DNA of 64,000 bases, taken from assembly GCA_018242665.1 (NCBI GenBank), contig JAFEBL010000006.1, positions 124,001 through 188,000 of the forward strand, given 5' to 3'. The position numbers and the translations under genes were made by a program. The stretch comes from Nitrospira sp. GTDB taxonomy: Bacteria > Nitrospirota > Nitrospiria > Nitrospirales > Nitrospiraceae. Under the pieces are notes generated by a model. The model had not been told where the DNA came from. It worked only from the letters and a program-made list of their open reading frames with translations, and did no database searches. This document shows positions 12,664 to 62,885 of this stretch, one piece after another; position 1 is the stretch's first letter, and every line of letters starts with the position of its first letter.

Positions 12664-14040
12664 CTATTTCCGGGTAAAGACTGCCGTCGGGAATCGGAGC
12701 GTCACTTGGAGATCCGGTGCTTCCCGTGTCGCACCGACTCCGACGACGAAATTCATAAAACTGCGATCGCTGAGTCGATAGGCGCCTCCAATCAGCAAGA
12801 CCCCAATTTGAGTCACTTGCGGCGTCGTCGTCAGCAGCAGGTTTGAAGCGGACGTGGGTCTCTCAAACACCGTATGGTCGTATCCCACCGTCAACGAGAG
12901 TTTTTCGTTCAGCGAAATGCCGAGGCCCACATTGACATTGGCGCCACTTCCGGGATCGATGCGCCCGATCTGCCCGCCGACGTTCCGCGACATATTCCAG
13001 ATGTAGCTCACACTGCCGAAGAGGACGGCAGGATCGCTGGGAAACAGGGCGGTAAAGCCAGGTTGGAGAATGTAAAAGCCAGACCCCGTTGGCAATTCTG
13101 TTTGGAACCCTGTGATCGGATCGATCGGCACTTCGAATGGACCCTTCCCGGTCGTGCTCTTAAATCGAGTGAACGCCACGAAATAGGGTTCGTCGGTCCC
13201 ACCTTTGTTTAATTGGTATCGGCCTGTTGCTTCAACGTCACCGAGACCGGAACCATTCGCGGTCGATACCGTATTCGCCGTTGACGGCGTGGCAAGAGGT
13301 CGCTGCGTAATCGAGTCCTCCCGATAAAGATAGGGCACTCTCACCTCAAGTTCGAGTCGATTCGTGAGTCCATAGCGGGCGACCAATGCCGCGGTATAAA
13401 TGTCCCGACTTATTCCTTGGATATTGATGAGACCGATCGTGAGGGCTGGGACAATGGTAAATCCGGTCAGCGTGACGCGATTACTGCTGAGATGCGCATA
13501 TTGCAGATACGGCTCCACGATGAGTGTGCCCTTCGGAGTCAGCACCCCGGCTCCCGGCAAATCGAATGTCCGAACCATCCATGGAGGGAGCGGCGCTTCT
13601 TGTGGATTCTCCGGAGCGACTCCCACTGGGCTGGCAGATTTCGATGTTGGATCACCTCCAATTTGACCTTGCGCGGGCGCATCTTGCTCGGGCACCTCAG
13701 GTCCGATCGTCTGCGCTTGATTGTTTGCGACGAGATAGCGGGAGGTGTCGGGCGACCATTGAGATCCCGGACCGAGAAGGTTCTTCCACCGGTCTACTTG
13801 TGACGGGTTGGTATGCATATCGACGAGGCTGGGCTGGACCGCGCCGATCGGAGGGGCCATCAGGCTCACCGCGAGTCCCAGAGAGAAGGCAATCCACACG
13901 CCTGTACGAGTATTTCCGGCAGGTCTCGGCGACTCATGAAGTGGTGTCGAACGAGTAGAGATAGTCAGTGAGTCGGTGGAAGGAATGGTCCCACGGCGTT
14001 TGTTTGTCTGACGACCTGCCGGCTTGTACGAGACGTTCAT
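12664..14040 (-). CDS. Outer-membrane beta-barrel exporter of a Fap-like secretion cluster
   Basis: This protein is 458 aa with the start at MNVSYKPAG, two bases after the preceding stop; a longer frame overlaps that gene by 67 bases. A long basic N-terminus leads into a signal segment (VWIAFSLGLAVSLMAPPIGA). A Pro/Gln-rich linker to about residue 150 follows, then a barrel of alternating strands beginning GTLIVEPYLQYAHLSSN and ending ADLQ-like amphipathic strands (LQVTLRFPTAVF). The layout, periplasmic linker plus PF13557-like barrel, resembles FapF, the exporter of Pseudomonas amyloid. It is the last gene of the cluster with a C39 peptidase and three secreted proteins. The homology to FapF is by architecture, not proven. 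Confidence 0.7.
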   Translation of the reverse strand: MNVSYKPAGRQTNKRRGTIPSTDSLTISTRSTPLHESPRPAGNTRTGVWIAFSLGLAVSLMAPPIGAVQPSLVDMHTNPSQVDRWKNLLGPGSQWSPDTSRYLVANNQAQTIGPEVPEQDAPAQGQIGGDPTSKSASPVGVAPENPQEAPLPPWMVRTFDLPGAGVLTPKGTLIVEPYLQYAHLSSNRVTLTGFTIVPALTIGLINIQGISRDIYTAALVARYGLTNRLELEVRVPYLYREDSITQRPLATPSTANTVSTANGSGLGDVEATGRYQLNKGGTDEPYFVAFTRFKSTTGKGPFEVPIDPITGFQTELPTGSGFYILQPGFTALFPSDPAVLFGSVSYIWNMSRNVGGQIGRIDPGSGANVNVGLGISLNEKLSLTVGYDHTVFERPTSASNLLLTTTPQVTQIGVLLIGGAYRLSDRSFMNFVVGVGATREAPDLQVTLRFPTAVFTRK

Positions 14041-14042
14041 CT

Positions 14043-14552
14043 TCAATGCCGGATGGTGCCTATGGTGGCTTGAGAGAGCGCGTTGCCCAGTGCAAGCGAC
14101 CTGGTCCAACCAAGTGCTCCCACCGTGGCATTGATGACGGTCTGATGTTGAATATTTTGATTGTCGAGCGAGTTTTGTAAGACGGTCATGAGCGCGGGCA
14201 ATGCGGCTGTACCAGGCGTCACCGCATTGCCGCTTCCGGTTTGGACGAGTGTGACTACACGGCTCGGATTGCCCGCGAGTTGCATCAAGTCTGGGATGTT
14301 GAGGGCCATTGAACTGACGAGCTCACCATTACGATGCACGCTCCGTTCGATCCCGAATGAGAGAATCGGACCATTCTGGCTGCTTTGAAACCCTCCTCGC
14401 ATGTGGTCCAAGACCTCCTCGCTCACCGGCATCCGTTGCAGAAAATTCTCGGTTCCCTCGGAGGCCATGGCCGAAGTCATGGACGGCACACAAAGGGGGA
14501 GCACCAACAGCGTAGTCAGGTGGCGAATCGATCTGATGAGTCGGAAGCGCAT
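14043..14552 (-). CDS. Small secreted protein with double-glycine site and amyloid-like motif
   Basis: This 169-aa protein starts within the stop of the peptidase gene (TAATG overlap). It has a Sec signal peptide (about 1-30), then SEEVLDHMRGGF at residues 44-55, which looks like a bacteriocin-type GG leader end (Gly53-Gly54) recognised by C39 peptidases. The C-terminal part contains VLQNSLDNQNIQHQTVINA (124-142), a segment also seen in two neighbouring secreted proteins. A periplasmic substrate or minor amyloid component (FapA/FapE-like position) is inferred. No known family was recognised by name. Confidence 0.65.
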   Translation of the reverse strand: MRFRLIRSIRHLTTLLVLPLCVPSMTSAMASEGTENFLQRMPVSEEVLDHMRGGFQSSQNGPILSFGIERSVHRNGELVSSMALNIPDLMQLAGNPSRVVTLVQTGSGNAVTPGTAALPALMTVLQNSLDNQNIQHQTVINATVGALGWTRSLALGNALSQATIGTIRH

Positions 14553-15244
14553 TAGAAATCCTTCCCGCCGGGACGAAACAGCAGAATGCTGCTTAAAGTA
14601 TCGGCGCCGACCGGTTGTCCGAGCGGTGATCTCGGGCGGACGCTCCAGTCACGGGCAGTATTGAATTCGCCTCGTGCCGGGGCCTCATGGATGACAAAGA
14701 CGATGCGGTTCGGCCACGCGGCTTCGAAATCCCCGCGCGGCACTACCCGCATGCCGACTGCCGGGTCGCCGAGCAGGACCTTATTGTCCCGCAGGCCTTT
14801 GATCACCACAAAATGGTGATAGCCGTTATCCACCATCAACACGATCGCCGGAAGACCGGCCTTCGCCACCTCGTCCAGAGAGACCTCAAATCCGTCTGCG
14901 CGATAGCCCTGTGCCTCTAAAAATCGCTTCATATCCAAGAGCGAAAAGCCTTCGCGTTGAATTTTTGGCTGGTCGCCGTGGTCGAACATCTCGCGGAACG
15001 CCACTTCTTCAGTGATGGGATTCCCATAGTGATAGGTCAGGAGGGTGGCGATGGCGGCCGAGCCACAGCTGTAGTCATATTTTTGGAGGATGACAGACCG
15101 GATTTTGAGTTCGCGCATACTCCAGACTTGGAGCAACATTCGACTCCCGACTCCTGGAGTGACCTCCACCGTGGCCGCCATCGCACCGGTAGAGGCGGAG
15201 AGCAGCAAGGCCAGCACAGATCCAATGGCACGGTTGGTCGACAT
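14552..15244 (-). CDS. Periplasmic C39-family cysteine peptidase (FapD-like)
   Basis: This 230-aa protein has a Sec signal peptide (residues 1-23, ending AMA) and a single peptidase C39 domain. The catalytic set is visible: Gln54 and Cys60 in LQKYDYSCGSAAIATLL, His144 in YHHFVVIKGL, and Asp160 in LLGDPAVG. Unlike bacteriocin exporters it has no ABC transporter domains, so it acts alone in the periplasm, as FapD does in functional-amyloid operons. C39 enzymes cut after double glycine, and both flanking genes encode secreted proteins with a GG site. The C-terminal 40 residues are a basic, Pro-rich tail. Confidence 0.85.
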   Translation of the reverse strand: MSTNRAIGSVLALLLSASTGAMAATVEVTPGVGSRMLLQVWSMRELKIRSVILQKYDYSCGSAAIATLLTYHYGNPITEEVAFREMFDHGDQPKIQREGFSLLDMKRFLEAQGYRADGFEVSLDEVAKAGLPAIVLMVDNGYHHFVVIKGLRDNKVLLGDPAVGMRVVPRGDFEAAWPNRIVFVIHEAPARGEFNTARDWSVRPRSPLGQPVGADTLSSILLFRPGGKDF

Positions 15245-15250
15245 GGACTT

Positions 15251-15595
15251 CTACTGCAGGGTTAAGTTCAGTACGGTCCCGTTCTGAATGATCACGTTGT
15301 TGCCTGAATTTTGGATGACCGTCGCAAGGCCGTTCGATCCGGCAAACGCGCCGCCTGTCACCGTATTATTACCCGTCACGTTACCGGTAGCGGAATTGTC
15401 AAACAGCTTGGCGTTCAGCATGTTCGCGTTGATCGTGACCGGACCGGGGTCCGTTCCCCCACGTTGGACGTCCAATTGAGCGGACGGGACAGGCTGGCCC
15501 CACGAACTCACCGGCGTCGTCTCAGGGGAGCCGGCGTGCGCCATGCCCACGCAGAGCCCAAGGACCGTCGCCACAGTTGAGAAGTAGATGTGCAT
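15251..15595 (-). CDS. Small secreted Asn/Gly-rich protein with GG site
   Basis: This 114-aa protein follows a GAGGG ribosome site. The signal peptide ends around AHA (residue 21). SAQLDVQRGGTD (39-49) contains a double glycine at 46-47 in the same setting as the 169-aa neighbour (L-D-x-x-R-G-G). The remainder is rich in Asn, Thr and Gly and ends with VIQNSGNNVIIQNGTVLN (93-110). That pattern of alternating aliphatic and Asn/Gln residues is typical of amyloid strands. It is likely a secreted, C39-processed component of the cluster. Confidence 0.65.
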   Translation of the reverse strand: MHIYFSTVATVLGLCVGMAHAGSPETTPVSSWGQPVPSAQLDVQRGGTDPGPVTINANMLNAKLFDNSATGNVTGNNTVTGGAFAGSNGLATVIQNSGNNVIIQNGTVLNLTLQ

Positions 15596-15628
15596 GATAC
15601 CCTCGCTCTGATCGTGGATCGCGCCATC

Positions 15629-15659
15629 AAGCTGGAGGAGCAGGTGGCTCCTCCAGCTT
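15629..15659 (-). terminator. Hairpin between the structural gene and downstream genes
   Basis: A perfect 13-bp stem (15629-15641 with 15647-15659) encloses a 5-base loop. No T-run follows, so it may act as a leaky terminator or mRNA stabiliser that makes the Gly-rich gene more abundant than the four genes downstream. It lies 9 bases after that gene's stop. Confidence 0.7.
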
Positions 15660-15667
15660 AACGCTGC

Positions 15668-16654
15668 TTAATGACCGACCGTGACGTTCGCCATCGTGGT
15701 CACACCGACCTGCTGGAGACTGGCCATTCCCGTGTTCTGAATGGCGACGGTCACTCCGGCGGCGCCGCTCAACCCGGAGAGGGTGTTAGAGGCATTGAAG
15801 GTTCCTGCACTTCCGCCGAACGAGTCTCCGCCTCTGCCGCCCGCTGCACCAGATCCACCATTGGCAGTCGCAGTCGAGGCTCCGCTAGTCGCGGAGCCGC
15901 CCGTACCACCCGCCCCACCGGTTGCCGTTCCGCCGTTTCCACCGGTTGCATTACCAGCTTCCCAATCAGTAGCTCCGTTGGTGGTATTCCCTGTATTGGG
16001 GCCGCCGTTGGCAGGGCTGCCAGTGCCGCCATTGGAAGTGCCCCCGTTCGTGCCGTTGGACGTGCTGCCGGCGCCGCCTGTGGCAGAGCCACCATTGGCC
16101 TTGGCATAACCACCATCCCCACCGTATGAATACGCTTTCCCAGAATGCGCTTTGGCTACGGCATAGCCACCATCTCCCCCGCGCCCGCCGTCTCCTCCAT
16201 AGGAGGCCGAGCCTCCGTAATTCCCAATGTGGGAGATGCTGTTACCGGACACAGATCCATCGAGCTTGGTGGCATTGACCACGGTGCTCTTATTGAACGC
16301 GTCGGTCAGGTTCAGTTGCAACGAGGTCGTGGCCGTCGAGTGGTTGTTGGCTGCTGCCCCAAAGGGAGAGTGATCGTTCTTCGCTTTTCCATCCCACTTC
16401 GTCTTCTCGTTATAGCTGTCTTTTATCTTCGTGTCGTTATTGGAATCGGTATTCGTTTTCGTGGTGTTTCTTGTGTCGTTATCGTTTTTCGTAATGGTCT
16501 TCGTGTGGTTATCGATGCTGTTATCGGTCTTCGCCACAGCCTTCGAATTGTCCGATGCCGCGGCGCTGCCGTTGTCGACCGTTTGAGCGCCAGCATAGGG
16601 TGAAAGGCCGAAGGCCAATGCCAACGCTGCCGTCGTGATCATCACTTTCTTCAT
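15668..16654 (-). CDS. Gly/Asn-rich secreted structural protein (putative amyloid or adhesin subunit)
   Basis: This 328-aa protein begins after TAGGAGGGTGAC. A Sec signal peptide ends at GAQ (about residue 23). Residues 25-95 are Asn/Asp/Lys/Thr-rich, dominated by (T/N)KN-D-N type repeats. Residues 145-290 are extremely Gly-rich (GGDGGYA, GGRGG, NGGTATGG). The tail VAIQNTGMASLQQVG (303-317) resembles the motif of the two small neighbours. Such composition suits a secreted fibre subunit; placement at the head of the operon before a hairpin fits high expression. It could also be a low-complexity adhesin. No named family is claimed. Confidence 0.65.
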   Translation of the reverse strand: MKKVMITTAALALAFGLSPYAGAQTVDNGSAAASDNSKAVAKTDNSIDNHTKTITKNDNDTRNTTKTNTDSNNDTKIKDSYNEKTKWDGKAKNDHSPFGAAANNHSTATTSLQLNLTDAFNKSTVVNATKLDGSVSGNSISHIGNYGGSASYGGDGGRGGDGGYAVAKAHSGKAYSYGGDGGYAKANGGSATGGAGSTSNGTNGGTSNGGTGSPANGGPNTGNTTNGATDWEAGNATGGNGGTATGGAGGTGGSATSGASTATANGGSGAAGGRGGDSFGGSAGTFNASNTLSGLSGAAGVTVAIQNTGMASLQQVGVTTMANVTVGH

Positions 16655-17190
16655 GTCACCCTCCTATCAATCATTCACGGTTAAAGAGAATCACTGTCGA
16701 ACCATACTGACTGACACTCCAACTGCGACGGCTCGTCACCTCCTTCCCGCATGGAGTGCCTCTGTGCCAGCTGACTCAACTCTCTGCGCTGGGGATGCAT
16801 CGTCTGTCCGTGCCTCTACATCTTTCGTGCCGAATTCCATGGCAAATACTTGCAAACATTTACTTAGTGTTGCTATGGAGTTATGGATACCGTTCCTCTT
16901 CGCCGTGCTGATGGCAGCGAGAAACAATTTTCCGTTCGGCTGCCGACTCGATGTTGAACACTTGGCTCTAAGCTCCTGTCTTTGAAGACAAATATCTGCA
17001 AAGAGACCCATTCCAATCCATGGAAAAATATTACCGATATCTACTTGCACTCCAGCGACCGATGACGCGCGATTGTCAGCGCGCCGACTAAGGGGGCCGT
17101 CAGTAGAATGCAAGGATTTGAAGCCGCTGGGGCATTGAGGAAGGACGAGCGGATAGATCGCCTTCGGCGATAAGACTGGATAGCGTCGCT
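16655..17190. other. Long upstream region of the Fap-like operon
   Basis: About 540 bases separate the structural gene start from the regulator's terminator. It should carry the promoter. Searching for GG-N10-GC on the minus strand gives only one poor site (17045-17060, CGGTCG...GTGCA), which I do not accept. The region is AT-richer than the neighbouring genes. A small stem (ATCGCC/GGCGAT) lies at 17157-17171. Confidence 0.5.
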
Positions 17191-17237: not shown

Positions 17238-18740
17238 TCAACCGGAGGGAAGCAGTTCTTCTTTGTCACCGCCTTTGTGGCTGGGCAGCCTACCGAGAAG
17301 TCCGCGGGTACGCAGTCTGTTAAAAAGGGTGCGAGGTGATAGCTTCAGCAGGGCAGCCATCTGCAAGCGACAGCCTCTACTTTCTCGCATGGCCCATACG
17401 AGCAATAGCCGCTCGCATTCCGCGAGTACTTGAGTAGATGACATGCCGTGCTTGACCTTCTCCAGCAGCGCGTCCGCGAAGCCATCCAAGCTATCGGAGC
17501 CGTTTTCATCACACAGATGAGTGAAGACTTCCGGCGGCAGATCTGCCATGTTCATGATGTCTCCTGCCTCCTTCCGAAACATGGCTTTTCGTACGAGGTT
17601 TTCCAATTCTCGGACGTTGCCTTCATAGGTCAGCGTCGTGAAGAGTTCAAGCACCCGTGAATCGACATCATGAATCGTTCCGGCGTAACAGGAGGCGTGT
17701 TTATTGACAAAAAAACGTACCAGTGGCTCAATGTCTTCCTTGCGTGCCTTCAGGAGAGGGAGCCGCAGAGAGAACACATCGAGTCTCTGATACAGATCCA
17801 TACGAAACGCACCGCGTGCCACCTCTGCCGTCAAATCCTTATTACTGGCCGCAATGATCCGAATGTCCGTCTTCTGCTCATTTTCCTCTCCGACCGGACG
17901 AACGGTTCCTTCCTGAAGCACCCGGAGCAACTTGGGCTGTAAATGCTGATCGAGTTCACTGACCTCATCGAGAAAGAGCACCCCGCCGCGGGCGGCCCGA
18001 AAATACCCTTGACGATCCTCATTGGCCCCCGTAAACGCGCCGCGCTTATAACCGAAGAACTCGCTCTCAGCAAGTGTGCTCGAGATGGCACTGCAATTGA
18101 CGGCAATGAACGGTCCCTTTGCGCGCTTTTCATCCAAATGATGTATGGCTCTCGCTACGACTTCTTTGCCGGTTCCTGACTCGCCGGTCAGCAACACCGG
18201 CACGTCACTGAGCTTCGCTGCTTTTTGGACTTGATCTCGCACGCTCTGTATTTCAGCGCTGGACCCCACCAAACCAAGCTGTTCTGGAAACGAGTGCGTA
18301 CTTTCATCGGTGTCTTTGGTCCGCTTCAGAGCCATCAGGACGTTGGCTCTCAGCTCCCAATAGAATCCCGGATCGGATTCGTCCAATAGGACGGTCACAC
18401 CTTTGGCGAAAGGTATACAGTATTCCGACAACGACAGACATTGGGCGGATTCGGCATAGGCAACCGTCACCGGTGGCCTAGGCAGCTCAATCATCGACTC
18501 GAGGATTCGATCTCCCCAGCATATTTCCAATGAGCACGCACAGTCGACGGAACGCCAGCGGAGGGGAAAAATCACGACTGTGGGAGTCAGGCGATGGACT
18601 GCGGGAAGGATCCGATCACAGGTGTAAATCGACTCGACGCGACACGAAGCGCGAAGCACGTCGGTAATGCGATGAAGGCGAACCCGGTTCCAGTCTGCAA
18701 CCACAATGGTCCTCTCGGCCATATCGGCGTGCATATTCAT
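17238..18740 (-). CDS. Sigma-54-dependent transcriptional activator, upstream of the Fap-like cluster
   Basis: This 500-aa protein has an N-terminal region (1-140) that looks like a degenerate receiver: [20 protein letters not shown] starts like one, but the acidic phospho-acceptor pocket is not evident. The AAA+ domain has Walker A GESGTGKE (186-193), the sigma-54 contact loop GAFTGA (234-239), Walker B GGVLFLDE (252-259) and R-finger region. The C-terminal HTH ([19 protein letters not shown]) completes it. It probably activates the neighbouring secretion operon, but no sigma-54 site was found there. The start has a distant GGAG; ATG at 18734 is an alternative. Confidence 0.9.
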
Positions 18741-49135: not shown

Positions 49136-50656
49136 ATGTCTGAGATCAATCTACTTCTCACCATGACTCCTCGCTCCGCTGTCTCTATCTCGATCGGCCG
49201 TCTGATTCTTTGCTCACTGCTCTGGTGCCTCCCCGGTCCAGCGACGACCTCTTCAGAGGCGGGACCAGTGTCGGAGGCCGAGCAGGGCCCTCGCGTTGAG
49301 ATGGTTGGACCGCCGGCCTCGGGCGAGCAGGCTGCCCCTTCGCACCGTCTTGATTGGGAGAGCGGCCGCGGGCGCAGCTATGTCATCCCTGCCGCCGAGG
49401 TCCTGACGTACATCTTCCTCTTGAACCAATACGATCGCCATTTCGTCGAACCGCGGGAGGCTTATCGAACCAGCGGCAGCACCATTCATCAGCATCTCAC
49501 CGACTCGAAGTGGGTCATCGATAACGATCAGTTCAAGGTCAACCAGTTCCTCCACCCGTATGGCGGCAGCGTGTATTACGGACTCGCTCGTTCATCCGGC
49601 CTTTCCTTTTGGGAATCCTTTCTCTACAGCACGGCGGGCAGCTTTGTGTGGGAGATCGCAGGGGAACGGACGAATCCTTCGATCAACGACATGATCGCCA
49701 CGCCGATCGGTGGCAGTCTCCTGGGAGAAGCCCTGTTCCGCATGGCGAGCCTGGTACTCGAAACTGACGACGGACGCCCGGGGTTCTTTCGCGAAGTGGC
49801 CGCCGCCGTTATTTCCCCGCCCACCGGATTTAACCGTCTCGTGTTCGGCAGCCGATTCGACGCGGTCTTTCCCAGCTACAAACCCGCCACGTTTTTCAGA
49901 TTGGAGGCCGGCGGCACGCTCACCTCCAGCAGCCACAATGTCTCATCCAGCGTGCGCGAGCATGGTGCGGTCGGCGACCTGACGTTGACCTACGGCCTCC
50001 CGGGCAAACGGGGCTATCAGTACGCGCGGCCCTTCGACTATTTTGACTTCCACGTCACCGCCGTCACTGCCAACACGCTGGAAAGCTTGAATACCCGTGG
50101 GCTTCTGGCGGGAACCACGTATGCCTCGGGCGACCAGACCCGTGGCCTGTGGGGCCTATTCGGCAGTTATGACTATATTTCGCCACAGGTATTCAGGGTG
50201 TCGAGCACCGCGCTCTCGCTGGGGACCGTCTGGCAGACCTGGCTGTCCGACGGCATTGCGTTACAGGGAACTGCACTGGGCGGAGGAGGATATGGCGCGG
50301 CCGGCAGCATCAAACGCCGCGAGGAACGGGATTATCACTACGGCCTCACGCCGCAGGCGCTGCTCGCCATCCGGCTCATCTTCGGCAACCGGGCCATGAT
50401 CGACTTCACCGGGCGGGAATACTATGTGAGTCGCGTGCTTTCCCAGGAAGGCAACGGCCAGGAGAACATCATGCGTGGCGACGCGGCGTTTACCCTGCGC
50501 CTGTTCGACCGGCACGGCATCGCGCTGCGTTATGCGGTGGCTCAGCGCAACGCCAGTTACCCGAATGTTGAATATCGCGATCAGACCGTGAGCACGGTCA
50601 GCTTGATGTACGTACTGCTTGGGGCATCGGGATTCGGGGCGGTGGACTGGCGTTGA
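49136..50656 (+). CDS. Outer-membrane DUF3943 protein
   Basis: This 506-aa protein follows closely after the transglycosylase-like gene. The signal peptide (about 10-45) leads to the DUF3943 core: KWVIDNDQFKVNQFLHPYGGSVYYGLARSSGLSFWESFLYSTAGSFVWEI, then ATPIGGSLLGEALFR. The C-terminal half shows repeated amphipathic strands ending in an aromatic, typical of a beta-barrel. The family is unassigned, perhaps a lipid or surface structure assembly protein. Confidence 0.8.
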   Translation: MSEINLLLTMTPRSAVSISIGRLILCSLLWCLPGPATTSSEAGPVSEAEQGPRVEMVGPPASGEQAAPSHRLDWESGRGRSYVIPAAEVLTYIFLLNQYDRHFVEPREAYRTSGSTIHQHLTDSKWVIDNDQFKVNQFLHPYGGSVYYGLARSSGLSFWESFLYSTAGSFVWEIAGERTNPSINDMIATPIGGSLLGEALFRMASLVLETDDGRPGFFREVAAAVISPPTGFNRLVFGSRFDAVFPSYKPATFFRLEAGGTLTSSSHNVSSSVREHGAVGDLTLTYGLPGKRGYQYARPFDYFDFHVTAVTANTLESLNTRGLLAGTTYASGDQTRGLWGLFGSYDYISPQVFRVSSTALSLGTVWQTWLSDGIALQGTALGGGGYGAAGSIKRREERDYHYGLTPQALLAIRLIFGNRAMIDFTGREYYVSRVLSQEGNGQENIMRGDAAFTLRLFDRHGIALRYAVAQRNASYPNVEYRDQTVSTVSLMYVLLGASGFGAVDWR

Positions 50657-57785: not shown

Positions 57786-60700
57786 TTATTGGATGAGATG
57801 TGACGTCTTGGAGGCGTGTGCCTCTCCGGACTCAGATCCCGCCCGCTTGACGGAAGGTGCCTGCTGGCTCAACGGCAGAATCCGTTGATCATCCGCCGGC
57901 AACACCTTCAACAGACCCCATTGACCCGATTGGGCATAGGGCAACCGCTGGTTGCTCCACACATAATCCCCCGGCTGACGGAAGCTTCCGCCTGCGGCAG
58001 GGATGAAGGCATCCAGCGATTCCGACGCCGAGAACTCCACGACGCTGATCTGATCGGCGCCGCGCATGAACGGCTCGATCGGCCATTCATGTTTTTCCAC
58101 ACTGAACATGCCGTTCTGTTCATTGCTCGCACCGAACACATGGATGCGCACGGGATCTCCCGCATGCGCTTCGATGAGCGGCGTGGCAATGCTTTCCGGC
58201 TTGTCCACCGAGCAGGGCTGGAACACCTTGCCCAGCGAGCATCCGCTGGCTTCACGGAACTTATAGGGTTCCGAACGGTAGTTCACGGCCGTCAGTCCCG
58301 CCGTGTTTTGCACGTAGGGCATGAAGCTCGTTCCGATGATGTTGTCTTCGTCTTGGAAGAACAGCGCCACATCGCGATAGTTCTGGCGATGTTCGTAGCC
58401 CTGGATCGTCCGGTCCACGATGACATCGGCGACCCAGCTGTTCTTCGTGGAAATGTCCGCACCGGTCTTCGGATCGCGATAGGTCGCCCCCTTGGGTCCG
58501 ATCACAATACCGCCATACAACCCGTTACGCGGATTGGTCATGACATTCCCCCAATCCCACACCAGAGACGCAGTCTCTCCGATGAACGGATCGGCATAGT
58601 AGGTGTACAGGCGGCTCTCACCCGGCGCGACCGTTTGCTCGCCCGGATTGTTGCCGACGTTCGCACCCAGGGAATCCTTCGGATCAAACGCGAGACCCAG
58701 CGCCGAGAACGACGCACGGCCCTGCTTCATCTTATTGCTCAACTTGACCTTGAGACAGTCCCCGACGTTTGCGCGCAACGTCAGCGGCATCGGCTGAAGG
58801 CCGGACGCCACCGTCGCCACATCCTCATCCAAGACGTAGATCTTGGCTTCGGGATTGACCATCTGAATGGTCCGCTCGAAGTCGACCTCGATGGCATCAG
58901 GAGCCTTCGGGTTCAACTTCATCGACGGGAAATCGATCGCCGACACATTGAAATGCTTCACCGGCGCATCGGCAGGACACACGGGTGGTGCTGCGGGAAT
59001 CACATTGCGCCCGCTGTATCCGGCAGGCAACTTCTGGAGATCCGCCACGTCCTTATCGAGGACGCGCAAAATACCCCAAGCGCCTTCCGAGAACTTAGAC
59101 GAACGACCATTGAAGTGAATGTAGTCACCCGCCTGCAAGCGTGGTCCGCCTGCTTGCGGAATGACCAGGTCGTATCGTTCCGCGATACCGACATGGATTG
59201 AGTTCTTCCGGTTTGCATCGCCGGCATACCGTTCCGTGAGGTAGGTATGACCGGACAGCGTCCAGACCATGCTTTCATTGGTCATGGTCTGCAACAACCG
59301 GAACACGACCGTATCCCCCAGGTAGGCTCGTAGCATCGGGGTGTACGGATCGCCATGTACAGCGCTGCTGAAGAGCTTCGACGTATCCGGATTGGCCTTC
59401 AGGCGTCCGCTGATCGGCTCTGCTCTGAAGTTGAGACCGCCGCCCGTCGTGTGGGTACCGCCGTTCAGGAACGGCATCGGCGTCATCTTGATATGGTCAG
59501 GAATCGGGAACGAGATCGTCTTCCCCGCTTCCAGGGCCACTTCCACCGGCTGACCCGGAGGATTCCCCGCGGTCACGATGTTGATCGTGTGCGGCACGCT
59601 ATCGTTCAACTGCACCAACAACTCACGGAAGCTGCCGTTCACCCCGTAGCCCACAGGCTCCGCGGTGCGGATGTCCGCCAACGGACCGCTCCGGATCGGC
59701 GCACCGGTCTTCGGATTGTGATAGGTCGAACCGACCGGCTCAACCAGCATCGTCCCGAATCCGCCGTGGCCCCAGGTAATCCGGCCCAACGCATGGTCGT
59801 GCCAGAACACGGTGCCCACATCGGAATCCACCCAGAACCGCTGTCGGACAAATTCCACCGTCACGATATCCTTCACAGGATGATCGTTCTTCAACGGCCG
59901 AACGAGCGTGATCTCGTTGCCCTTGATCGACTGAATCCGTCCGACTTCATTCCCGCCGACGTTATCCGCGCCGATGAGAATTTCGATGCCAGGATGATAC
60001 TGCGCGGCGTTCTTCAGGGTGATCACGCGATCGCCCTTCTTTCCCGCCTTCGTGAAGATGGTGTTCAGGGGCAAGGGCAAGCCCTTGTCCGTTTTCTTTT
60101 CCAACATCGTGAACGGGCGCACCGACTGTTCGTTCGAGAAGCCGGTGATCACGCCGTCCGACGACTGATTGTCGAACTGCAGGAAGTGCCAGTGGGTGTT
60201 GACCTTCGACGCGTGGAAATTGCCGAAGTCGTCGTCATCCCACTCGCTGGTCAACATCCAATCGACGCAATCATAGATGTTCGACCGCACGACCAACGGG
60301 AACCGCAGGTCGTTGTTCTTGCGAATGGCCGCTTCCTCTTCATGTAACACATAGATCAACCCGCCTTCGTCCATGATGGCCGGGGTGTCGCCCTGCTTGT
60401 CGGCGAGCATCATCGGCGTATGGATGAAGTGCACGTTGTATTTCTTCGAGCCGGCATTCTCCGGGCACAGGCTCCAGCGTCCGTTCTCACCCGGCTTGGC
60501 GGGATAGGAACTCGGCTGGCCATCTTCCTCGAGGTGGATCATTTCCAACCAGGGGGATGGGTTGTGGCCCTTTGAGAATGGCACGCGGCGACCGAAGTGC
60601 GGCTTCAAGTGCGGCCAGGAGACCTTACCGGTCAACGGCTCGAACACGATCGGCAACCGCTCGCCCGGATGGGTCGATTGATACCGCGGATTCGGCACCG

Positions 60701-62663
60701 TGTTCTCAGGCTCGGTCATGGCGCGAGTACCCTGCCAGCCCCAATTCAGCACGCTCGCGTCATAGGAGCGGGTCTGATCGCGCTCATCCTTCTTATGACC
60801 CGGAAGACCCTGCGGTGGGAATTGCATTTCCACCCAGTCCTTCAGCGTCACGATGGCCGGATCAGCCTTCCAGTCGGTCTTGCCCTTCTCCACGATCTTG
60901 AACTGCTTGCCGAACCAATCGACGGTCTTGCCGATCAACTCGTCCGACGTGACACCCACCTTGATGCGGCCCTTGCGGTCCGGCAACTCCAGCAGGTCCG
61001 GCATCACGTCATTGTGATTCGCGCCCTGCTGAATGGTGTTGTAGACACGCCAGTAGCCCCACATGCCCGCGATGTAGTGATGCGCCACGTGGCAGTGGAA
61101 GAGGAAGTCTCCAGCCAACTGCTGGCACAGACCGGAGCCGCACTCGGTTTCCAGATCCATGGTCTCGGACGGACCGATGACTTCCACGTCGACGCGATCG
61201 GACTTGGTCCGGATCACGGGATACTTGACGGGACCGTTCTTCGCCGCATGCCACAAGGGCATTTCGTCGATGGCGCGCGGACTCCGCGGCCAACGAATCG
61301 CGCCACCGTGCGGATGGTGCGAGTGGAACACTTCGGAACCACCGTGGACCAGCCGGAACTTGGCCGGGTCACCGAGGTAGCTGCGCGGAATGGTCGTGGC
61401 CGGATCGCCGAACGTATAGGCGCTGTAGGCCATCGACTCATCTTCGAAACCGAAGTATTCGTGCTGCGTCTGCATGTTATCGACGCCGAACGGTTCGCTC
61501 CGATAGTTCAACGCGCGGGCCACCGGACGATACACGTCGGTGAGCGGATCGCGCTGCGGGATGAAGTCGCCCTTCTTGTTCAATGGACGGAACGCTTCGT
61601 CGCCGACCTCATGATAGAACAGCACAAATTCCCGGAAGTCCGGGCCGCTGCCGTTCTTGATGATCGCCTGCCAGCCGCTCTTGGTCGGCTTGGGGTCGCC
61701 CGTTCCGAGCGGTTCGAGGTATTCAGATCCCTTCGGTTCGATCACGAAGGATCCGAAGAGGCCCATCACAGTCAACTCACGATCGTTGCTGTAGGAATGG
61801 AACTGGCGGCTGCCCTCCTGCTGAGTCGGGGGGATATACCATTCCATCTCCACAGCCTTGCCCTTGGCCGCAATGCTGTCGGGATTGGTGGTCGTGGCCG
61901 GCTGTCCCGTGGCCGACATGACCATGCTTGAACCATGGATGTTCAAGCTGACTTCTTCATCGCCTTCCAGCTGATTGCGGAGGGTCATCTTCACGCAATC
62001 GCCCTGGTTGCCGCGAAGGACCAGCGGCTGAATGAACTGATTCTGCAACCCGTTCATGACGCCGCCCGGATCGTAGCCTTCCTTGTCCCGCGCTTCCTTG
62101 TTCTTCGTCTCTTCGGCGCGGACCTTCTCAATGTTCTCGGTCAGCGAGTACATGTAGCCAGGATAGAAATCGAGCCACATGTTCAAGGTGATTTCCACAT
62201 TGATGGCCGACACATCGTAGCTGCGAACCGGCGCACTGGCCGGACACTTCCCGCCCATCGCGGAGACGGGCTCGGCGCCGCTGTTCGACATCAACAACAA
62301 ATCCTGGTTCCCGGCCCCGTACTGGTGCAACATGTTGACGTTGTTGTACTGGCCGCCGGTGCGCTGCGCCTCGGCATCATGGACCAACTGCTCGTTGATC
62401 TTCTCCATGATGCGCTGGTGCTGACGCTCCATCATCGCGGTGCGCTCGACATGCCCTTCCTTCGCATCCTCGACAATGGTCTGCCCCTTCAACTGCTCAG
62501 CCCATGCCGGCTGATTATGCGCAGTCGCATGCAGATCCGCCGCCGAAGCTACCTGGAACGCCCCGACACAGACCGATGGAAGCATGACTCCCAACAGGAG
62601 CTTCCAGGCCGCTTGGGACCTGCGCTGACTGTGTTTCTTAGGCCCGCTACGTACCGATCTCAT
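57786..62663 (-). CDS. Giant multicopper oxidase (MofA-like, possible manganese oxidase)
   Basis: This 1,625-aa protein starts at MRSVRSGPKKHSQRR with GAGGAGG upstream. The signal segment is LLLGVMLPSVCVGAFQVASA. Four copper motifs are visible: H-x-x-H-x-H in FHSHHPHGG (about 446-453), HCH-x3-H-x4-M in FLFHCHVAHHYIAGMWGYW (about 522), then HWH (about 821) and HDH in VFWHDHALGR (about 953). Canonical oxidases place the two H-x-H motifs first, so the order is permuted; the middle and last thirds add further cupredoxin-like domains. Length is near that of Leptothrix MofA (about 1,660 aa); metal oxidation (Mn or Fe) is inferred. A signal peptide places it outside the cytoplasm. Confidence 0.88.
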   Translation of the reverse strand: MRSVRSGPKKHSQRRSQAAWKLLLGVMLPSVCVGAFQVASAADLHATAHNQPAWAEQLKGQTIVEDAKEGHVERTAMMERQHQRIMEKINEQLVHDAEAQRTGGQYNNVNMLHQYGAGNQDLLLMSNSGAEPVSAMGGKCPASAPVRSYDVSAINVEITLNMWLDFYPGYMYSLTENIEKVRAEETKNKEARDKEGYDPGGVMNGLQNQFIQPLVLRGNQGDCVKMTLRNQLEGDEEVSLNIHGSSMVMSATGQPATTTNPDSIAAKGKAVEMEWYIPPTQQEGSRQFHSYSNDRELTVMGLFGSFVIEPKGSEYLEPLGTGDPKPTKSGWQAIIKNGSGPDFREFVLFYHEVGDEAFRPLNKKGDFIPQRDPLTDVYRPVARALNYRSEPFGVDNMQTQHEYFGFEDESMAYSAYTFGDPATTIPRSYLGDPAKFRLVHGGSEVFHSHHPHGGAIRWPRSPRAIDEMPLWHAAKNGPVKYPVIRTKSDRVDVEVIGPSETMDLETECGSGLCQQLAGDFLFHCHVAHHYIAGMWGYWRVYNTIQQGANHNDVMPDLLELPDRKGRIKVGVTSDELIGKTVDWFGKQFKIVEKGKTDWKADPAIVTLKDWVEMQFPPQGLPGHKKDERDQTRSYDASVLNWGWQGTRAMTEPENTVPNPRYQSTHPGERLPIVFEPLTGKVSWPHLKPHFGRRVPFSKGHNPSPWLEMIHLEEDGQPSSYPAKPGENGRWSLCPENAGSKKYNVHFIHTPMMLADKQGDTPAIMDEGGLIYVLHEEEAAIRKNNDLRFPLVVRSNIYDCVDWMLTSEWDDDDFGNFHASKVNTHWHFLQFDNQSSDGVITGFSNEQSVRPFTMLEKKTDKGLPLPLNTIFTKAGKKGDRVITLKNAAQYHPGIEILIGADNVGGNEVGRIQSIKGNEITLVRPLKNDHPVKDIVTVEFVRQRFWVDSDVGTVFWHDHALGRITWGHGGFGTMLVEPVGSTYHNPKTGAPIRSGPLADIRTAEPVGYGVNGSFRELLVQLNDSVPHTINIVTAGNPPGQPVEVALEAGKTISFPIPDHIKMTPMPFLNGGTHTTGGGLNFRAEPISGRLKANPDTSKLFSSAVHGDPYTPMLRAYLGDTVVFRLLQTMTNESMVWTLSGHTYLTERYAGDANRKNSIHVGIAERYDLVIPQAGGPRLQAGDYIHFNGRSSKFSEGAWGILRVLDKDVADLQKLPAGYSGRNVIPAAPPVCPADAPVKHFNVSAIDFPSMKLNPKAPDAIEVDFERTIQMVNPEAKIYVLDEDVATVASGLQPMPLTLRANVGDCLKVKLSNKMKQGRASFSALGLAFDPKDSLGANVGNNPGEQTVAPGESRLYTYYADPFIGETASLVWDWGNVMTNPRNGLYGGIVIGPKGATYRDPKTGADISTKNSWVADVIVDRTIQGYEHRQNYRDVALFFQDEDNIIGTSFMPYVQNTAGLTAVNYRSEPYKFREASGCSLGKVFQPCSVDKPESIATPLIEAHAGDPVRIHVFGASNEQNGMFSVEKHEWPIEPFMRGADQISVVEFSASESLDAFIPAAGGSFRQPGDYVWSNQRLPYAQSGQWGLLKVLPADDQRILPLSQQAPSVKRAGSESGEAHASKTSHLIQ

Positions 62664-62885
62664 TAGACCTACCTCCTCTTGAAACCATACAACCTCCGCA
62701 TTCCCACACTCTGCCATCGCACCCGCCGCGCACGGTGCAGGCCCGTGAAGACCTGCACCTCATGGAGTGGAAACACCAGGAGGCCGGTCCTTCGGTTTCC
62801 ACACCCTTGTTCGCGACCGCGAGACGACGGCGCACTTCACAATGCGCATGAAACGCAATGCGCATAAAAAGACGGCGGATACCAG

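Follow-up and report, generated by a model that had tools for sequence, protein, structure and literature searches.

Results

A five-gene operon encodes a FapD-like peptidase and a FapF-like barrel

We analyzed a 64,000-nucleotide stretch of Nitrospira sp. DNA (assembly GCA_018242665.1, contig JAFEBL010000006.1, positions 124,001-188,000), hereafter called the window, whose own numbering is used for the coordinates given below. Five open reading frames (ORFs) occupy positions 12664-16654 of its minus strand, and in operon order (5′ to 3′) these encode a secreted Gly/Asn-rich protein that we call G, a small secreted protein (sm1), a C39 peptidase, a second small secreted protein (sm2), and an outer-membrane barrel. 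The barrel gene is the last of the operon, and the sm1, peptidase, sm2, and barrel genes are closely packed. An earlier reading of this DNA, referred to here as the original prediction, had reported these five minus-strand genes, all of which are present, and had proposed that they share the part list (structural proteins, FapD, and FapF) of the Pseudomonas fap operon. Alignments recovered the identical five genes in identical order from seven more genomes of this bacterium's family, and the arrangement is thus not a product of chance. As detailed below, the operon combines export machinery of the Fap type with a different cargo and is not a canonical fap operon.

The peptidase (14552-15244, 230 amino acids) has a signal-peptide-like start, lacks an ABC domain, and matches Pfam Peptidase_C39 (E = 2.9e-22), as had been predicted. 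A search against FapD profiles identified it as a clear homologue (NCBIfam C39_FapD, E = 3.5e-39). Its score of 134 bits against the NCBIfam FapD model falls below the curated equivalog cut-off of 330 bits, and the protein also matches the NCBIfam model of Acinetobacter FilB (E = 7e-35). Judged from these profiles, the peptidase is a FapD homologue rather than a certified FapD. In an alignment of 12 diverse members, Gln54, Cys60, His144, and Asp160 are invariant. The putative catalytic Cys60 (codon 15065-15067, within DYSCG) is the equivalent of the C39 nucleophile, named Cys38 in FapD (PMC5557850), and the codons of the putative catalytic His144 and Asp160 lie at 14813-14815 and 14765-14767, all on the minus strand. 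The protein thus displays a characteristic of FapD, namely a predicted Sec-exported C39 peptidase with intact catalytic residues. The sole other C39 domain of the genome (G000:C6:92135-92497) lies inside a 727-amino-acid open frame, a length like that of bacteriocin-type ABC transporters.

The barrel gene (12664-14040, minus strand, approximately 458 amino acids) has an approximate start: translation probably begins downstream of the listed TTG at 14109, and a Met at codon 24 is kept across the alignment. Comparison with the FapF crystal construct 5o67 (phmmer, E = 5.6e-27) gave an alignment that spans the whole beta domain, including the PTG motif shared with FapF (13084-13092). The barrel also matches the NCBIfam models of FapF (E = 6.1e-35; 121 bits, below the equivalog cut-off of 700 bits) and FilC (E = 4.6e-14). 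AlphaFold modeled most of the barrel with confidence, the strands being mostly above pLDDT 90 in the beta-barrel domain (12682-13533, residues 193-476 of the listed ORF), and Foldseek returned FapF 5o65 as its best match (E = 1.3e-19, TM 0.78 by target length). The top 18 PDB matches are all FapF chains, well ahead of the next entry, the COG4313 channel 4rl8, which argues against an unrelated transporter family. From sequence and model together, the barrel has a FapF fold and is a FapF homologue rather than a certified FapF. The N-terminal linker in the original prediction corresponds to a Pro/Gln-rich segment (13536-13977) in which the model places no helix longer than five residues and pLDDT is mostly below 50.

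Two small secreted proteins carry double-glycine leaders

Each of the small proteins, sm1 (15251-15595, minus strand, 114 amino acids) and sm2 (14043-14552, minus strand, 169 amino acids, in the FapE position), begins with a Sec-type N-terminus, continues with a textbook double-glycine leader, and ends in a C-terminal module shared with G, which we call the QN module. The sm1 leader (15455-15499) reads ...PSAQLDVQRGG^TD, with cleavage predicted after Gly47, and the sm2 leader (14391-14432) reads MPVSEEVLDHMRGG^FQ, with cleavage predicted after Gly54. No recurring Pfam or NCBIfam family was found in 17 sm1 members; sm2 has no Pfam or NCBIfam match beyond chance, and its relatives likewise lack a recurring family.

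Leaders recognized by C39 peptidases have a hydrophobic residue at position −12, Leu at −7, a hydrophobic residue at −4, and Gly-Gly. Both small proteins conform to this consensus, the hydrophobic residue at −4 being found mainly in sm2. To quantify conservation, we used 103 loci chosen by similarity to the peptidase, and all such counts therefore describe its near relatives rather than all FapDs. Homologues of sm1 and sm2 were found by their mature parts alone and the preceding residues were read afterwards, to avoid circularity. The sm2 leader is near-invariant: 95 of the 100 loci with a homologue have Gly-Gly near the predicted mature start, four more were recognized by inspection, and one has GT. 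Among the 95, Leu occupies −7 in 87, Arg −3 in 93, Phe +1 in 83, and Val, Leu, or Ile −12 in 83. For sm1, Gly-Gly occurs at most 25 residues from the predicted mature start in 69 of 77 loci with a homologue and at most three residues away in 64 of 77; of the 69 homologues that have Gly-Gly nearby, 64 have Leu at −7. The two predicted small secreted proteins are real and conserved.

The leader and first mature residues of sm2 match those of FapE-like proteins from operons of the FapB/C type (probability 91%; score 47.9, with shuffled controls no higher than 20.6). The NCBIfam FapE model does not match the sm2 of the window, and it gives E = 3e-4 on locus L025. The corresponding site in Aeromonas caviae (L128) is LADGELAHLRGR^Y, with RGR instead of RGG, and therefore FapE proteins in general probably have a leader-like segment, in which the last Gly varies. 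At another locus (L022:87-1340), a single ORF encodes a C39 peptidase together with a FapE-like protein whose leader ends in RGT, owing to either a real fusion or a sequencing error.

Leader-like sites also occur in barrels. The pattern L...R[GA][GA] precedes the barrel in 36 of 94 sequences, versus a mean of 4.5 after shuffling. Many proteobacterial relatives have barrels with a coiled-coil-like stretch (for example L041, L053, and L128), and a GG, GA, or AG site stands directly after it in L041, L049, L053, L060, L064, and other proteobacterial FapF-like barrels. With a slightly wider pattern, the site was found in 37 of 63 barrels that have such a stretch versus 1 of 31 without (Fisher p = 7e-8), a value that serves as an indication only, given phylogenetic dependence and a crude coiled-coil measure. 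These sites suggest that many proteobacterial barrels are themselves cut by the peptidase, and Rouse et al. proposed that FapD might cut FapF near a comparable place (PMC5557850). The window barrel has neither the coiled coil nor a leader-like site. Loci L026-L028 have tandem barrels, the second with an N-terminal OmpA-like domain that by eye looks peptidoglycan-binding.

G and the small proteins share a C-terminal module

G (15668-16654, minus strand, 328 amino acids; 20% Gly, 10% Asn) is the putative main structural cargo. It comprises a Sec-type signal peptide predicted by eye and conserved in relatives (approximately residues 1-23, 16586-16654, MKKVMITTAALALAFGLSPYAGAQ), an Asn/Thr/Lys-rich stretch, a conserved internal module (16220-16354, AAANNHSTA..FN...TKLDG.V..N...IGN), a Gly/Ala-rich segment (15806-16216), and a near-invariant C-terminal QN module (15671-15805, AAGVTVAIQNTGMASLQQVGVTTMANVTV). 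Across 26 sequences, N104, F120, N121, L131, G133, G144, and N145 of the internal module are invariant. The Gly/Ala-rich segment between the two conserved modules ranges from 27 to 551 residues among relatives, with 33-44% Gly in all but one. Thus, the predicted Gly/Asn-rich secreted protein is present and has a predicted signal peptide, but its Gly-richness is not the conserved part. G is conserved in Nitrospiraceae and Proteobacteria; no Pfam or NCBIfam family was found in any of its 26 members beyond one chance-level match, and its AlphaFold model is disordered (pLDDT 40).

Profile comparison of the C-termini linked G with sm1 (probability 93%, with a score of 37 where column shuffles reached no more than 12) and sm1 with sm2 (probability 88%), with shuffled controls at or below 1% for both pairs, and the direct comparison of G with sm2 was weak. 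This common module supports co-assembly of the three proteins, as far as sequence can indicate. Direct proof of FapB/C-like repeats in G was also sought and yielded weak profile similarity only: the QN module scored 19.9 against the FapB/C repeats versus at most 12.3 after shuffling, with a probability of 18-25%.

The subunits are unlike FapB and FapC, as originally predicted. The FapB, FapC, and FapE models matched neither the window proteins nor anything else in the genome; for FapB and FapE this is a weak negative, since those searches matched in no control genome, whereas the FapC search matched in two other Nitrospirota. Relatives of the cargo gave single weak matches to FapB (0.015) and FapE (0.005). 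No FapA match was found among the five proteins in an NCBIfam scan, for which the presence of a FapA model in the library is unconfirmed.

The layout is widespread and its peptidases form a separate clade

The order of cargo, small protein, C39 peptidase, and small protein, together with a barrel, recurs in most of the 103 loci, which span Nitrospirota and Beta-, Gamma-, and Alphaproteobacteria, and the peptidase is therefore no ordinary stand-alone protein. Seven other genomes of the window's family and a second Nitrospirota family (L026-L028) have it, so the cluster does occur in other Nitrospirota, as the original prediction had suggested checking, and is not confined to them. The layout is also found on large replicons from a plasmid collection (Cupriavidus, Croceicoccus, Polymorphobacter, and Photobacterium). 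GTDB species genomes hold at least 570 peptidase relatives, the best 80 of which are nearly all from Beta- and Gammaproteobacteria and mostly have the same layout. Of the 103 loci, 95 have a FapF-like barrel, several of the remainder being on short contigs; the barrel gene lies downstream on the same strand in 66 loci and is mostly divergent upstream in the listed others. Among 296 Nitrospirota genomes, 18 have a FapD-type peptidase and 11 have sm1, and all 11 are among those 18 (hypergeometric p = 1e-15, calculated over related and hence non-independent genomes).

In a tree of 55 peptidases, the loci with this layout fall into one clade (45 rows, support 100/97) that excludes the peptidases of operons with FapB/C-type repeats (L022-L024 and L128). 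Canonical-like FapB/C repeat proteins do exist in Nitrospirota, in genomes G257 (L024, 2986-11437) and G201 (C48), with NCBIfam FapC matches down to 7e-17; G257 belongs to the window's own family, and its repeat proteins adjoin a FapD/FapF pair. Outermost in the clade is Indioceanicola profundi (L046:3762-5510), which has a 582-amino-acid cargo with many QNNG repeats instead of a G-type cargo, a possible intermediate between the FapB/C type and the G type.

A sigma-54 activator and other neighboring features

The first gene upstream of the operon (17238-18740, minus strand) encodes a sigma-54-dependent activator, or bacterial enhancer-binding protein (bEBP), with an AAA+ domain, a lid, and a Fis-type helix-turn-helix (Pfam Sigma54_activat, 5.7e-64; HTH_8, 5.8e-4). 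A bEBP gene lies inside 47 of the 103 fetched stretches versus approximately 9% expected, an expectation taken from the 32 bEBPs of the Nitrospira genome alone. The neighboring activator probably controls the operon. Some relatives have scattered sigma-54 sites with one or two mismatches approximately 500 bases upstream; shuffled sequence yields a three-mismatch site in 17%.

A block containing GGAGGTGA (16720-16760), approximately 70-90 bases 5′ of the G start codon, is kept in relatives and is additional to G's own ribosome-binding site. Rfam gave no match anywhere in the window, this block included. Elsewhere, the window encodes a very large, secreted-looking protein of 1643 amino acids with a multicopper oxidase domain (57786-62717) and a DUF3943 protein (49136-50656; Pfam, 1.6e-36).

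Discussion

A two-step secretion operon of the Fap type with noncanonical cargo is the best explanation of these data, and we consider it probable. It is supported by the homology to FapD and FapF, the invariant C39 residues, the double-glycine leaders over approximately 100 loci, the frequency of the barrel among them, the shared C-terminal module, the likeness of the sm2 leader to FapE leaders, the co-occurrence of sm1 with the peptidase, the separate FapD clade, the enrichment of bEBP genes, and published results on FapC and FapE. Specifically, FapD activity is required for FapC secretion in Pseudomonas, and FapE alone among the Fap proteins was found to be fully processed at its N-terminus (PMC5557850).

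As we envisage the pathway, the operon proteins, whose expression the adjacent activator would probably control, are predicted to cross the inner membrane via Sec, and the barrel to insert in the outer membrane. The periplasmic FapD-like peptidase would then bind the leaders of sm1 and sm2 and cut after Gly-Gly, giving mature proteins of 67 and 115 residues, respectively. Such processing may be what permits the proteins to leave via the FapF-like barrel, by analogy with Pseudomonas, where FapD activity was shown to have this role for FapC (PMC5557850). Outside the cell, G would join sm1 and sm2 via the shared QN modules into a surface fiber or matrix, with G as the bulk subunit and the small proteins as nucleator, anchor, or adaptor.

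Several points weigh against this interpretation. Cleavage, secretion, and the formation of an amyloid or fiber are steps that we infer. The predicted disorder of G fits an amyloid and another matrix protein alike. G has no Cys at all and hence no CxxC of the kind that FapC has near its C-terminus (PMC5135000), and it has one QN module rather than the three imperfect repeats of FapB and FapC, to which this module is linked weakly, a suggestive similarity only. The window barrel lacks the N-terminal coiled coil of FapF, and the window sequence upstream of G gave no convincing sigma-54 site. We looked for both the FapB/C repeats and the coiled coil and found neither; for this reason we do not classify the operon as a Fap system, although by its predicted parts it appears to work like one.

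One alternative is a nonfibrous secretion system, in which a Gly-rich surface coat or a ligand-binding protein passes through the barrel and no amyloid or filament is formed. G consists largely of a Gly/Ala-rich spacer of variable length that is predicted to be disordered, and the amyloid nature of the product is itself inferred. Against this, the machinery is of the kind that exports amyloids, and the shared QN modules suggest co-assembly. We regard a nonfibrous product as unlikely, yet worth keeping in view. Of the proposed new branch of amyloid or fiber export, the export branch is supported by the separate FapD clade, and its amyloid part stays conjectural.

Double-glycine leaders are also the hallmark of bacteriocins processed by C39 enzymes, and sm1 and sm2 could be small active peptides of a bacteriocin-like or autolysis system that the peptidase matures and the barrel releases, a mechanism proposed for the Neisseria nap island, where NapP (C39) and NapF (a FapF homologue) accompany such peptides (PMC11798529). 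This is very unlikely: mature sm1 and sm2 share a C-terminal module, via sm1 also with the structural-looking G, the gene set is kept as a unit in distant phyla, and no candidate immunity protein was noticed in the operon. Equally improbable is the reading that this is a canonical fap operon with a FapB, FapC, and FapE too divergent to be recognized. The identical order (cargo, cargo, FapD, FapE position, FapF), the FapE-like sm2 leader, and the weak resemblance of the QN module to FapB/C repeats would favor it, but it is opposed by the separate peptidase clade, by one module in place of three repeats, a G without Cys, and two leader-bearing proteins, and by FapC-type repeats that are still recognizable in Nitrospirota G257 and G201.

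Beyond the window, the probable Fap-type operon may exemplify a second, widespread class of surface fiber or matrix, in which a Gly/Ala-rich protein and two partners processed at double glycines are exported by FapD/FapF-type machinery. Cutting of the leader would then be the general activating signal of FapD peptidases, in many Proteobacteria also removing the coiled coil of the barrel. We advance this broader proposal tentatively, as one about as apt to fail as to hold. Since the presumed substrates carry near-invariant textbook C39 sites, cleavage is directly testable in vitro, and therefore so is the long-open question of the FapD substrate. The carriers include nitrifiers, in which a biofilm or floc matrix protein would have practical interest.

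Comparison with known systems

Curli (csg) resemble the operon in having a secreted Asn/Gln-containing cargo and a dedicated outer-membrane pore. To our knowledge, the curli pore and accessory proteins are unrelated to those described here, and no C39 peptidase takes part. For the putative Fil pilus system of Acinetobacter (FilA-F), the FilB model matches the peptidase, the FilC model matches the barrel, and the gene preceding the C39 gene in L047 has a leader-like start. Fil differs in having further genes downstream, a cargo that is dissimilar by eye, and a peptidase on a distant long branch of the tree. The Neisseria nap island (NapP, NapF, NapA-C) likewise combines a C39 peptidase, a FapF homologue, and double-glycine proteins, an association that was already known, but the Nap peptides are short and cationic and promote autolysis, and the published description of the island mentions neither a Gly-rich cargo nor a QN module (PMC11798529).

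With the Fap system of Pseudomonas (fapABCDEF), the operon shares a FapD-type periplasmic C39 peptidase, a FapF-type barrel, a predicted Sec-exported Asn-containing cargo, gene order, and a leader-bearing protein in the FapE position. It differs in having no FapB/FapC triple repeats, no recognized FapA, two double-glycine proteins, a Gly/Ala-rich main cargo without Cys, a barrel without the coiled coil, and a peptidase in a separate clade. Note that fap operons often lack FapA (PMC12822426). Earlier reports left the FapD substrate undetermined and stated that canonical C39 sites are missing from Fap proteins (PMC5557850, PMC6173800), and according to later review text, FapE and FapF are believed to be processed by FapD (PMC12822426). 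Prior work had already described FapD and FapF and had noted that the two occur together in five additional phyla (PMC6173800), and Fap operons were reported from Nitrospirota in 2025 (PMC12822426). In the open-access PMC literature, we found no description of the present cargo set, its leaders, or the G family. A 2025 GTDB survey that required FapB/C repeats called Fap evolutionarily fixed (PMC12822426), whereas the operons without recognizable FapB/C repeats described here indicate that the same type of export machine bears other cargo in several phyla.

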